In this document: positions 15,798 through 19,045 of the stretch, piece by piece
Numbering within the stretch: the stretch's first letter is position 1
Layout of the letters: each line of letters begins with the position of its first letter
Source: Candidatus Avelusimicrobium pullarium
GTDB taxonomy: Bacteria; Elusimicrobiota; Elusimicrobia; Elusimicrobiales; Elusimicrobiaceae
NCBI GenBank assembly: GCA_944323745.1
Contig: CALUTQ010000001.1
Span: forward strand, 62,001-126,000
Direction: 5' to 3'
Length of the DNA: 64,000 bases
The notes under the pieces: generated by a model
What the model saw: the letters and a program-made list of their open reading frames with translations, nothing else
The model's database searches: none
Told to the model about the DNA's origin: nothing
Translations under genes and position numbers: made by a program

Positions 15798-17261
15798 ATG
15801 AACGACAATAAAGCCATCGGATTTAAAAGACAAGCCCTGCGCAAAGTTATAGAAGCCTTTGACGCCGGCAAACTGGAAACTGCGGCCTTCCGCATTCCGT
15901 ATGACGTTATCCCGCGCGACGCCAAACTGGACGTACGCTGCTGCGTGTATAAAGAACGCGCCGTGTTCCGCGCCCGCACGCTGGCGGCGCTGGGCTGTGC
16001 CGTAGAAGCCGACGACGAAGCCACCTCTCTAAACGATTATGCCAAACAGGCCCTTTTACGCAAAGATACACCCGAAACCCCGCTGACCGTGCTGGATATT
16101 GCCTGCAAAGGCTGCGTTAAAGCCCGCCACATCGTAACGGAAGCCTGCCAAGGCTGCTTGGCGCGCGCCTGCGAAACGGCCTGCAAATTCGGTGCCGTAA
16201 AAGTGGTAAACGGCAAAAGCCATATTGACCCCGACAAATGCAAAAACTGCGGTCAATGCAAAGCGGCCTGCCCCTATAACGCCATTACCTATGTGCCGGT
16301 TCCGTGCGAACAATCTTGCCCCGTGGACGCCATCCACAAAGGGGAAAACGGCTTTGCCCAAATTGACTTTGACAAATGCATTTCCTGCGGACATTGTATG
16401 GACGCCTGCCCCTTTGGCGCCATTATGGAACGCAGCCAGCTTATTGACATTTTAAGCGCTATGAAAAGCACACGCAAAGTGTGCGCCATTGTAGCTCCGT
16501 CCATTGTGGGGCAGTTTAACGCCACCTTGCCCAAACTGCTTACGGCTATCAAAAAGGCCGGTTTTGACAAAGTAAGCGAAGTGGCCGAAGGTGCCGACGT
16601 TACCACCAAACACGAAGCTAAAGAGCTTATTGAACGTTTGGAACGCGGCGACAAATTTATGACCACCTCTTGCTGCTCCGCCTGGATACAAGCCGTTAAA
16701 AAACATTTGCCCGCTTTGAAAAAATATGTTTCGGATACGCATACGCCTATGTCCTACAGTGCCGAGATTGAAAAGAAAAACGGCTACACTGTGGTGTTTA
16801 TCGGCCCCTGTGTTTCCAAACGGGTGGAAGGACGCGAAGACCCCAATGTGGACTATGTAATGACCTACGAAGAATTGGGCGCTTTGCTGGACGCGCGCGG
16901 CATAGACCCCGCCCAGTGCGAAGACACCCCCCTTGACCCCAAGGTATCCGGCGAAGGCCGCTACTACGGCGTTACCGGAGGGGTAGCCAAAGCCGTGGAA
17001 ACGGCCGTCAACGGGCACCGCCCCATTAAAATGATGACCATTAACGGTTTGGATAAAAAGTCTATGCTGATGCTTAACGCGTATGCCAAAGGCGTGGGCG
17101 ATTTTCAGCTGCTGGAAGTAATGAGCTGCAAAGGCGGCTGTATTGGCGGCCCCTGCACCCTGTGCAGCCAAGCCAAAGTCATTAAACCCATTAAAGACTT
17201 GGTAGACGCCAGCCCGCACGTAGCCCCTGTCTTTGAAAAAGACAAAGAAGAAACCAAATAA
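15798..17261 (+). CDS. FeFe hydrogenase, monomeric, probably group B
   Basis: Iron-only hydrogenase of 487 residues that would evolve or oxidise H2 with ferredoxin. An N-terminal domain with CCVYKERAVFRAR near 48 is followed by a Cys-rich segment (102-130) and two 4Fe-4S ferredoxin motifs (Cys 148-158 and 194-204). The H-cluster motifs are L1 TSCCSAW (290-296), L2 GPCVSK (336-341) and L3 MSCKGGCIGGPC (442-453). The layout matches group B enzymes better than bifurcating group A. Maturases and partner subunits are not in the window. A TGG-TAAAAT element lies nine bases before the ATG and no ribosome binding site is seen. Confidence 0.92.
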   Translation: MNDNKAIGFKRQALRKVIEAFDAGKLETAAFRIPYDVIPRDAKLDVRCCVYKERAVFRARTLAALGCAVEADDEATSLNDYAKQALLRKDTPETPLTVLDIACKGCVKARHIVTEACQGCLARACETACKFGAVKVVNGKSHIDPDKCKNCGQCKAACPYNAITYVPVPCEQSCPVDAIHKGENGFAQIDFDKCISCGHCMDACPFGAIMERSQLIDILSAMKSTRKVCAIVAPSIVGQFNATLPKLLTAIKKAGFDKVSEVAEGADVTTKHEAKELIERLERGDKFMTTSCCSAWIQAVKKHLPALKKYVSDTHTPMSYSAEIEKKNGYTVVFIGPCVSKRVEGREDPNVDYVMTYEELGALLDARGIDPAQCEDTPLDPKVSGEGRYYGVTGGVAKAVETAVNGHRPIKMMTINGLDKKSMLMLNAYAKGVGDFQLLEVMSCKGGCIGGPCTLCSQAKVIKPIKDLVDASPHVAPVFEKDKEETK

Positions 17262-17272
17262 GTCCTTTAAAC

Positions 17273-17298
17273 AAAACCCCGCTTTTAGGCGGGGTTTT
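17273..17298 (+). terminator. Terminator of the hydrogenase gene
   Basis: AAAACCCCGC / GCGGGGTTTTT hairpin directly after the stop codon. Confidence 0.88.
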
Positions 17299-17303
17299 TC
17301 TTT

Positions 17304-18081
17304 AAGCAATAAAGCTGCCGAAAGGCGCCGTTCAAACAAGGCACGGGCCTCCCCTCTTTTTAGGAATATAACGACTTCAAAAAGTCCATCGGCACAAATA
17401 CCCCCTCCTTACTTTGCCCAGCCTTGAGGATACAACTGTTGCCAAAAAGGCAGGCTCACCAAACAGCACATCTTTTATCGGCCTTTAAAATATAGCACCT
17501 TTTCCAAACTACAGCGCGGCACAAACAATATGGTTCTTTATCCGGTCAAAACTACCTGAAGGACAAAAAGTCAACTACTCCGTCTGGTAGTATTTTTCTG
17601 CTCACCTTGTTTTTCCCCCAAAAATGCAGCAAAAAGCCTCCGTCCCTAGGGGCGGAGGCTTTGCCGTCTGCTTAAATAAAGCAAACGGCAGGGGGGAGCG
17701 GGCAAATCGGTCGCACTTTAACGGCTGTTTTAAAATGAAAGGACACCTCATTTTGCCAAGCGTTTTAATACAGTTCCCCTGCACCGCACGGCGGATATAT
17801 CCGTGCGGCGCAGGCACCAAAGGAGCGTGATTCCCCTTTGGGCCTTGGGGTAATTTAAAAACGGCAATAAAAAAGGCAGCCTTCGTTATGGTAGTTGTCA
17901 CACAACCAATAACGACGCTGCCTCACTGTGTAATGCTTTACACAGTCAAAAGCGCGCCGTTTTTGGGGTGACAACTTTCGGTTTTGGCCGAATGTTCCGC
18001 CAAGCGGACCCAAAAACAAGCCGATAAATTTAAATTTTATTTGTTATGTATGTTATTATCTCAAAAAAGAAGACAAAAGTA
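17304..18081. other. Gene-free, hairpin-rich convergent intergenic region
   Basis: About 0.8 kb between convergent hydrogenase and rpsI genes with no convincing coding frame. I see strong inverted repeats at 17633-17662 (AAAGCCTCCG stem, T5 on the minus side), 17663-17689, 17779-17813 (CCGCACGG stem), 17875-17922 (GGCAGC plus TCGTTAT stems, T6 on the minus side) and 17925-17946 (ACTGTGTAA stem). Two of these end in T-runs on the minus strand, which suggests one or two small minus-strand RNAs. I could not match tmRNA, RNase P RNA, SRP RNA or 6S signatures. Confidence 0.5.
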
Positions 18082-18108
18082 AACCCCCTTCCACGACGGA
18101 AGGGGGTT
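18082..18108 (-). terminator. Terminator of the rplM-rpsI operon
   Basis: AACCCCCTTCC / GGAAGGGGGTT hairpin 23 bases after the rpsI stop, followed by a weak T-rich tail. Confidence 0.75.
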
Positions 18109-18130
18109 GCATATGCCGTTCCAAAACAAA

Positions 18131-18526
18131 TTAACGTTTGGAGAACTGGAAGCGCTTTCTGGCGCCCGGCTGGCCCGGTTTCTTTCTTTCCACCATTCTG
18201 GGGTCGCGGGTCAGGAAGCCGGCCTTTTTGACGGTCTTTTTCAGTTCTTCGCTGATTTCAGCCACGGAGCGGGCAATGGCGTGGCGCAAAGCGCCGGCCT
18301 GGGCGGAAATACCGCCGCCCTGCACTTTGGCGGTCACGTCATATTCTTTTTCCAGGTTGGTAATCGTCAAAGGAGCCTTAACGGTGGCCTGGAATTTTTC
18401 GTGGCCTTTAAAATAGTCAGCCAAGGCTTTGGCGTTGACAGTAATGACGCCGGTGCCTTTTACCAATTTGGCCTGCGCAACAGAAGTTTTGCGGCGGCCG
18501 GTTTTAATTTCTTTGGTATTGTTCAT
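18131..18526 (-). CDS. rpsI: Ribosomal protein S9
   Basis: Small-subunit ribosomal protein uS9, 131 residues. It has TGRRKTSVAQAKL near the start, the central GGGISAQAGALRHAIAR, and the conserved C-terminal tail GARKRFQFSKR whose last Lys-Arg reach the P-site tRNA. A GAGGG ribosome binding site precedes the ATG. It lies 15 bases downstream of rplM, the usual L13-S9 pair. Confidence 0.98.
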   Translation of the reverse strand: MNNTKEIKTGRRKTSVAQAKLVKGTGVITVNAKALADYFKGHEKFQATVKAPLTITNLEKEYDVTAKVQGGGISAQAGALRHAIARSVAEISEELKKTVKKAGFLTRDPRMVERKKPGQPGARKRFQFSKR

Positions 18527-18541
18527 AAAAGTTTATCCCTC

Positions 18542-18967
18542 TTATTTGGCAAATCTGCCGGCGAATTCGTGTTCCTGCCCGCTGAACAAGCGCAAGCGTT
18601 TCAGGCGCGGAGCGCGCAAACGGTTCACGTCCAGCATACGTTTAACAGCCAGTTCCAACACTTTGGTGGAATCTTTTTCAAACTGGCGGCGGAGCGGCGT
18701 TTCTTTGGCGCCTTTGGCATAACCGGAGTGAGAGAAATAAATTTTCTCATCCATTTTATTGCCGGTTACTTTGATTTTATCCGTATTGGTCACAACGACA
18801 AAATCACCGCAGTCCATATGAGGGGTATAGGTTCTTTTGTGTTTGCCCATCAGCAACACGGCCACGCGGGTGGCCAGTCTGCCCAGGGTTTGGCCCGTGG
18901 CATCAATGTGGTGCCATTTACGGGTGGTTTCAACTTCCTTAACGGAAGGCAGAAAAGTTTTCGTCAT
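18542..18967 (-). CDS. rplM: Ribosomal protein L13
   Basis: Large-subunit protein uL13, 141 residues. WHHIDATGQTLGRLAT near residue 18, the MGKHKRTYTPHMDCGD segment near 40, and the SHSGYAKG motif near 80 are typical. First gene of the L13-S9 operon. A TATAAT-type -10 sits about 80 bases upstream, leaving a GC-rich leader before the ATG. Confidence 0.98.
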   Translation of the reverse strand: MTKTFLPSVKEVETTRKWHHIDATGQTLGRLATRVAVLLMGKHKRTYTPHMDCGDFVVVTNTDKIKVTGNKMDEKIYFSHSGYAKGAKETPLRRQFEKDSTKVLELAVKRMLDVNRLRAPRLKRLRLFSGQEHEFAGRFAK

Positions 18968-19045
18968 AATTTATGTTTACCTTTTGTTATTAAAGCGCAG
19001 CGGAGTGGTGGCCGCCGCATTATAATGACTCGTGGTTTCCTGTAT

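Follow-up and report, generated by a model that had tools for sequence, protein, structure and literature searches.

The window examined here is a stretch of 64,000 nucleotides (nt) from Candidatus Avelusimicrobium pullarium, phylum Elusimicrobiota (assembly GCA_944323745.1, contig CALUTQ010000001.1, positions 62,001 to 126,000). Its hairpin-rich, gene-free stretch at 17304-18081 carries, on the minus strand at 18027-17869, a conserved structured RNA (hereafter RNA A), whose structure is firmly supported by comparison with related sequences. RNA A probably belongs, as a stand-alone copy, to a family of transcription attenuators in which a terminator alternates with a long antiterminator rod. 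The attenuator-type family itself is real, and was not found in Rfam or in the literature searched. An initial annotation of this DNA had proposed one or two minus-strand RNAs at this place. RNA A is now firm through covariation, whereas the second, ending at 17631, is not established (16.1 bits). That the stretch would appear to hold one stand-alone copy of a two-state RNA family was not foreseen.

Conservation and covariation of RNA A

In a DNA search of 61 genomes, including that of the window, the segment 18108-17865 recurs whole or in part in nine of 36 other genomes of the same genus (E <1e-14), while the left part of the stretch has nothing better than E 0.003. Several relatives carry a tandem second copy, C, a few dozen to several hundred bases beyond copy A. 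In two relatives, the A/C pair lies in a different gene context, beside what reads as a helicase-like open reading frame (ORF; L009/L121) or a pilin-like ORF (L010/L122). By our own count, A/C-type copies are present in 16 same-genus genomes including the window's own (best E <1e-15 with model R1, described below). No same-strand ORF stands behind A or C in the loci read, among which no systematic test was made.

Covariation was assessed in 16 copies (eight A and eight C, from ten genomes) chosen by word pattern. Excluded were copy A of L005 and of L010 (off pattern), L008 (cut by a contig end) and L022 (a duplicate of L006). The structure set down has 56 pairs: a stem P1 enclosing hairpins P2 and P3, a hairpin P4, the terminator T, and a 9 base pair (bp) helix, the tag, that joins AGUUGUCAC to GUGACAACU. 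Across the 16 rows, 91.4% of cells are paired and double changes occur at 26 of the 56 pairs. None of 500 shuffles reaches this structure on four of five measures, and 15 of 500 reach it on the remaining one, pair types; sliding the alignment by a single column cuts pairing to about 45%. The test in related genomes that the initial annotation had called for thus lends strong support to the stems of RNA A, and the hairpins it noticed are real. The segment 18027-17869 is a conserved RNA separate from the neighbouring gene rpsI.

Other features of the stretch likewise bore out what had been seen. The predicted minus-strand hairpins are present at 17633-17662 with T5 behind and at 17869-17922 with T6; the repeat finder reports the former, and the remaining hairpins, including P4 (17925-17946) and 17664-17690, appear in computed folds. 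Gaps in this DNA are mostly shorter than 250 bases (38 of 42, between mechanical ORFs of at least 90 amino acids), and of the four remaining gaps the two longest contain tRNA genes. No convincing coding frame exists. The longest ORF lying entirely within the gene-free stretch has 99 amino acids (17602-17901, minus strand) and overlaps the terminator of RNA A, and the homologues of RNA A, 151-170 nt long, differ in length by numbers that are not multiples of three. Folding energies lie well below those of shuffled sequences for 18055-17855 (z -4.7) and 17860-17612 (z -6.8). They cannot pick the strand, because both strands of the whole stretch fold well (z -7.0 for minus and -8.2 for plus, 20 shuffles each).

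These data bear on the explanation that chance hairpins or bidirectional terminators lie between two convergent genes. The convergent position would suit it, as would a simple terminator scan of 16500-19000, which returned a chance number of hits (5, against 4.7 +/- 2.1 expected) and listed neither T nor the 17633-17662 hairpin. Conservation in nine of 36 relatives, covariation, and the two relatives with an A/C pair in another gene context all contradict it, and we reject it as next to impossible.

Known RNA families do not account for the element either. Against Rfam 15, the window yields only two tRNAs, located elsewhere, and the gene-free stretch has no match at the curated cut-off; at E <=10 the region gives 32 matches, all below cut-off. 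Among 18 relative loci only tRNA and 5S RNA were matched, and six loci searched at E <=0.1 gave four matches below cut-off, of which IBV_D-RNA (24.7 of 35 bits) falls inside the RNA of L149. There is no match to 6S RNA (RF00013) in the window's own genome or region, and the transfer-messenger RNA (RF00023) is located elsewhere (G000:C1:642888-643233). Literature searches, and word searches in the accessible text of PMC11257099, PMC8040213, PMC11109978 and PMC2864571, gave no description of this RNA. The last of these records the Termite-flg motif (RF01729) from the termite hind gut only (PMC2864571); like the present family, it is a structured RNA for which a gut community is the sole known source, but the loci of our family have no Rfam match.

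A leader family of the Elusimicrobiota

The covariance model R1, made from the 16 A/C rows, matches 31 of 340 genomes of the phylum when eight candidates per genome are scored. Among 17 distant matches inspected, a tag helix is present in 14, with 9-12 bp and a sequence that almost always differs (L128 and L129 share theirs), and the other three stop before the end of the terminator. Twelve long forms were aligned, for which RNAalifold gives 60 pairs with double changes at 40. A second model, R2, was built from those twelve long forms only, leaving out the A/C copies; with six candidates scored in each genome, it matches 97 of the 340 genomes, which belong to 11 of 100 genera. R2 recovers the copy in the window with a score of 42.2 bits (genome E 1.4e-8, window E 5.6e-10), a reciprocal match that is partly circular rather than fully independent, because the R2 rows were first found through R1.

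Deeper scoring of eight genomes, picked for quality or for many matches, gave at E <=0.01 three matches in the window's own genome (G000), 21 in G095, 56 in G081, 14 in G031, 12 in G111, 13 in G109, 59 in G120 and three in G123. The highest figure, 59, comes from a genome of 1.4 Mb, and to our knowledge such a copy number per genome is very high for a leader RNA. The elements are multi-helix RNAs of about 150-240 nt. A P4a loop of CUAAUUACCCG type recurs in the long form and is missing from the short forms, and near-invariant unpaired positions are few among 100 leaders. Outside the phylum, two matches with E about 0.009 in 30 genomes reached via other-phyla loci were taken as noise. A phage origin was set aside, the two short matches in phage records being at chance level (E 0.8); one long-form core pattern had no match in viral contigs.

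We fetched 100 copies from four genomes, best-scoring first with one skipped (40 of 56 from G081, 40 of 59 from G120, 15 of 21 from G095 and five of 14 from G031). Directly behind 93 of them lies a same-strand ORF with a ribosome-site-like word, at a median gap of 38 nt, and in 83 of 100 the start is at most 120 nt downstream. The prepilin methylation motif PF07963 (E <=0.001) occurs in 69 of these 93 ORFs. Others encode TPR repeats (six), glycosyltransferases of family 2 (three), outer-membrane barrels (two) and a type III methyltransferase (one). By word pattern, the pilin share is 34/40, 22/40, 9/15 and 3/5 for G081, G120, G095 and G031. A sigma-70 box is found 25-75 nt before P1 in 80 of 100 leaders and in 57% of shuffled segments, a weak signal. 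Most copies examined thus stand directly before pilus-like, surface or defence genes, and therefore the family looks like a large hidden system of gene control. If so, a single uncatalogued RNA design would govern much of what certain members of this little-studied phylum of gut bacteria display on their surface, and would offer a direct way into the question of how a cell with around 100 pilin-like genes picks between them.

Copy number does not track pilin number, the window's own genome having 106 pilin-like matches and three copies of the RNA. Pilin-like genes are in any case plentiful in many of these genomes, with prepilin-motif matches numbering 114 in G081, 108 in G120 and 80 in G102, though 18 in both G111 and G123. 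As a side observation, the 104 to 114 matches in G000, G081, G120, G016 and G095 (1.4-1.8 Mb) are far above the needs of one pilus. The other two copies in the window's own genome, both with 11 bp tags, precede a type III restriction-modification methyltransferase and a GmrSD-type gene.

The same distribution raises two further explanations. A repeated mobile DNA element, such as a miniature inverted-repeat transposable element or one resembling repetitive extragenic palindromes, might merely carry hairpins along; it would explain the patchy occurrence and high numbers of the copies (the eight genomes have 3 to 59 matches each), as well as the identical genes found behind different copies. Against it stand the orientation of the copies, their distance to the following gene (83 of 100 within 120 nt), the U-tract terminator and the base-pair covariation, which make it very improbable. 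A small-molecule riboswitch with a surface and defence regulon, a special case of the attenuator reading, deserves more weight, with P1-P2-P3 or the conserved P4a loop as its pocket. Cyclic-dinucleotide riboswitches are a comparison model for such a regulon. The common conserved core before many different genes and the recurring P4a loop speak for a riboswitch. No Rfam riboswitch class matches, however, few unpaired positions are near-invariant over 100 copies and the short forms lack the P4a loop, so that we hold this version possible but doubtful.

Some side observations concern single loci. The short-form copies L125, L127, L128 and L129 lie near small genes with a weak resemblance to PDDEXK nucleases, possibly a defence module; PF11645 matches below cut-off in L125 and L128, and L127 and L129 are alike by eye only. 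L127 also has a PHP/ATPase-like ORF nearby, as read. A palindrome-like word of the type CGACAAA..TTTGTCG recurs some 15-35 nt past the terminator in L127, L128, L129 and L140, sitting between RNA and gene like a protein operator.

Two competing folds

In RNA A, strand 1 (GUUUUUGGG, 18009-18017) forms the 5' side of P1, which encloses P2 (17996-18008), P3 (17977-17992) and the 5' half of the tag, AGUUGUCAC (17968-17976), in its junction. Strand 2 (CCCAAAAAC, 17959-17967) forms the 3' side of P1 and continues into GGCG; the 5' side of the antiterminator is AACGGCG (17955-17961). P4 (17925-17946) follows. The terminator hairpin T (17869-17922) closes with GGCAGC ... GCUGCC and ends in a U6 tail. 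Its 5' arm includes strand 3, CGUCGUU (17911-17917), which is able to pair with strand 2 instead, and its loop holds the 3' half of the tag, GUGACAACU (17893-17901). All lie on the minus strand. Strand 1 and hairpins P2 to P4 rest on the structure model and covariation, the tag halves on energies as well, strand 2 on the model and rod covariation, strand 3 on rod covariation, and T on its sequence and covariation.

Both alternatives are supported across the family. For the fold P1-P2-P3-P4-T in 100 leaders, 95.3% of cells are paired, with double changes at 52 of 60 pairs and 899 double-change cells against 195.5 in shuffles, in an alignment that was fitted to the model. Strand 2, just 3' of P1, pairs with strand 3 on the 5' side of the terminator over 8.5 bp, compared with 5.2 bp when shuffled. 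The 2:3 pairing is nested with the tag helix, so that the two build a single rod, incompatible with P1 as well as with T. For this second fold, 97.9% of cells are paired in the 16 A/C rows, with double changes at nine of 25 pairs, three of them among the seven pairs of strands 2 and 3. A mutually exclusive terminator and antiterminator thus both appear conserved in silico, and a switch is well supported on paper.

Computed energies place the two states close together. The rod minus the sum of P1 and T with free tags has a median of +1.6 kcal/mol (range -17.2 to +9.5), and the rod is lower in 30 of 93 copies. When the transcript is cut just after the tag, the minimum-energy fold is the rod in 92 of 93, a test that the choice of the tag as the best complementary pair tilts towards the rod; for the full element it is P1 in 81 of 93 and the rod in 11. 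Pseudoknots and the kinetics of the polymerase lie outside these energies.

Several results weigh against the attenuator reading, besides the terminator scan at chance level and the partial circularity of the R2 match. The 2:3 pairing is not specific to the copy, at 7.8 bp within the same copy, 7.6 bp with another copy and 5.6 bp when shuffled (84 parsed copies). Since strand 3 is also bound in the terminator and pairing is equal within and between copies, the 2:3 covariation rests mainly on differences between A, C and long forms. Computed pairing of strands 1 and 4 is not special, and in the 16 A/C rows the further pair types of the rod are no better than in shuffles (384 of 500 as high). 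Of the 16 A/C copies, 15 form the rod as cut transcripts, and at full length nine remain rods, including the window copy, while six form P1 and T and one forms neither. For the full window copy, the rod (-66.2) is computed below P1 plus terminator with free tags (-60.4), and its terminated state is therefore not predicted without help.

The tag could also suggest a static pseudoknotted small-RNA or leader family, in which it pairs with the loop of a formed terminator and nothing switches. In its favour, one of the covarying halves lies in the P1 junction and the other in the loop of T, and P1 and T themselves are well supported. Folded alone, however, the terminator loop has a median of 7 nt, shorter than the tag at a median of 10 nt, so that a full helix is hardly possible with T closed and a full pseudoknot is disfavoured. 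The complementarity of strands 2 and 3 would also be superfluous in a static fold, and we consider this explanation unlikely.

Under the attenuator reading, P1 (strands 1:2) and the terminator (3:4) would make one state, and the 2:3 pairing with the tag, as a long antiterminator rod, the other. The rod would form first during transcription. Once strand 4 emerges, the RNA could drop into P1 and the terminator, and transcription would stop. A signal, whether a metabolite, a protein or an RNA, would hold the rod, so that RNA polymerase continues into the gene. Where a relative has C in tandem, copy A may in addition control whether transcription passes on into C.

Attenuators of the trp leader type likewise alternate terminator and antiterminator before a gene. 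The present family differs in that no leader peptide was noticed, none having been searched for, and in its copy-specific tag helix, which would clamp the antiterminator. Its matches also number as many as 59 in a single genome of 1.4 Mb, and the window copy lacks a convincing gene behind it. The HMP-PP (thiS) riboswitch is reported to have a sensor structure interlocked with the stem of an intrinsic terminator (PMC6478431). The interlocking is alike, whereas our family is, at about 150-240 nt, multi-helix and mostly placed before pilin-like and surface genes.

Copy-specific tags and the role of the window copy

The tag has 9 nt in the window copy and roughly 10 bp in the family. A tag helix of at least 8 bp is found in 93 of 100 copies, compared with 11% for halves taken from different copies, and all 93 tags differ. 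Among the other seven, L262, L274, L275 and L288 have an 8-11 bp tag in a wider search, in which pairs from other copies reach 9 bp in 13.8%. No tag was found in L271, L290 or L302 even in that search, the 9 bp candidate of L271 overlapping P3.

Tags tend to be kept along a lineage and to differ between copies, as far as sequence comparison can tell. Within one genome, 28 pairs of copies have a likeness of at least 80% outside the tag; inside it their mean is 50% (0.10 to 0.83 among those listed), no higher than the 52-55% tag likeness of dissimilar pairs. Between genomes, A copies are 83% alike outside and 91% in the tag (32 pairs), and C copies 82% and 77% (nine pairs), with A and C matched by type and not always by gene context. 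Where leaders share a downstream gene (four groups), the tag is kept except in L290, where it is broken; only L158/L141 is divergent enough to inform (81% outside, 100% inside the tag).

T-box leaders also combine one conserved architecture with a gene-specific variable element. In the present family, unlike in T-boxes, both halves of the variable element belong to one RNA. The tag as an address for a partner RNA elsewhere was rejected, with no excess over shuffled tags in 1.12 Mb of G120: after subtraction of two own sites each, 28 ten-mers had 42 matches against 67.8 +/- 18.7, and 33 nine-mers 216 against 280 +/- 46.9. Nor was selection against cross-pairing of tags within a genome seen, pairings of at least 7 bp having a frequency of 0.0178 within and 0.0155 between genomes. 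The tags are sufficiently explained by drift of a helix that is free in sequence, with selection or gene conversion maintaining the rest. They would also offer a natural set of some hundred variants for measuring the effect of co-transcriptional folding on termination.

Leaders and genes recombine, as chimeras show. Between the 3' side of P1 and a point about 350 nt past the terminator, L271 and L273 are nearly identical; upstream of this they differ, and the tag of L271 is broken. The 150-residue proteins encoded after the L284 and L285 leaders are identical, but the leaders themselves are only 59% alike, with identity beginning near the end of the terminator. Both pairs look like recent chimeras, the break inside the leader of L271 destroying its tag match. 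We speculate, at the risk of being quite probably wrong, that bistable leaders, each locked by a private tag with one half on either side of the leader's middle, form a phylum-specific system that decides which of up to about 110 genes, pilin-like and other surface or defence genes, are expressed. Recombination in which a new gene arrives with half a leader would break the lock, as in L271, and couple expression to cassette exchange; stand-alone copies would be decoys. If true, this would be an RNA-based counterpart of antigenic or phase variation.

The window copy departs from its family, as a convergent gene follows it instead of a same-strand ORF. It has a promoter-like site, the complete architecture and the U6 tail, with no convincing ORF behind. 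Same-strand ORFs behind it are mechanical only, the 99 amino acid frame overlapping T and one of 295 amino acids antisense to a hydrogenase-like gene. It is probably a stand-alone small RNA, because no convincing gene lies behind it. Its product would be a short RNA of about 180 nt, whose simplest role may be to act as a decoy for whichever factor recognizes the leaders. Rli55 is such a decoy RNA for the antitermination protein EutV, and a stand-alone copy of a leader motif could likewise titrate a leader-acting factor, although we know of none for this family. The dullest role, an evolutionary left-over, is disfavoured because A/C copies occur in 16 genomes of the genus and the tag is kept in the 15 A copies compared.

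The promoter-like site (18055-18083, minus strand) reads TTTACT-17-GATAAT with TG before the second hexamer, matching at nine of 12 positions. It is weak on its own, four such sites being found against 2.4 +/- 1.3 in shuffles. A hairpin with a T-rich tail at 18082-18108 (minus strand), between rpsI and RNA A, is taken as the rpsI terminator. The neighbours, named from their translations as read, are a ferredoxin/[FeFe]-hydrogenase-like ORF on the left (15798-17261, plus strand) and, convergent with it on the right, rpsI (18131-18526, minus strand).

The match at 17781-17630 on the minus strand (16.1 bits, E 0.0057) lies roughly where relatives have copy C. It may be at most a decayed C, which would account for the second terminator-like hairpin of the initial annotation. 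Between RNA A and this place, another hairpin-rich element lies at 17760-17860 (minus strand), and a like arrangement is seen by eye in L006, L021 and L022. Two hairpins, the second terminator-like, occupy 17630-17690 on the same strand, and relatives carry hairpins with the word CUCAUCCCGGGGG at the corresponding place.
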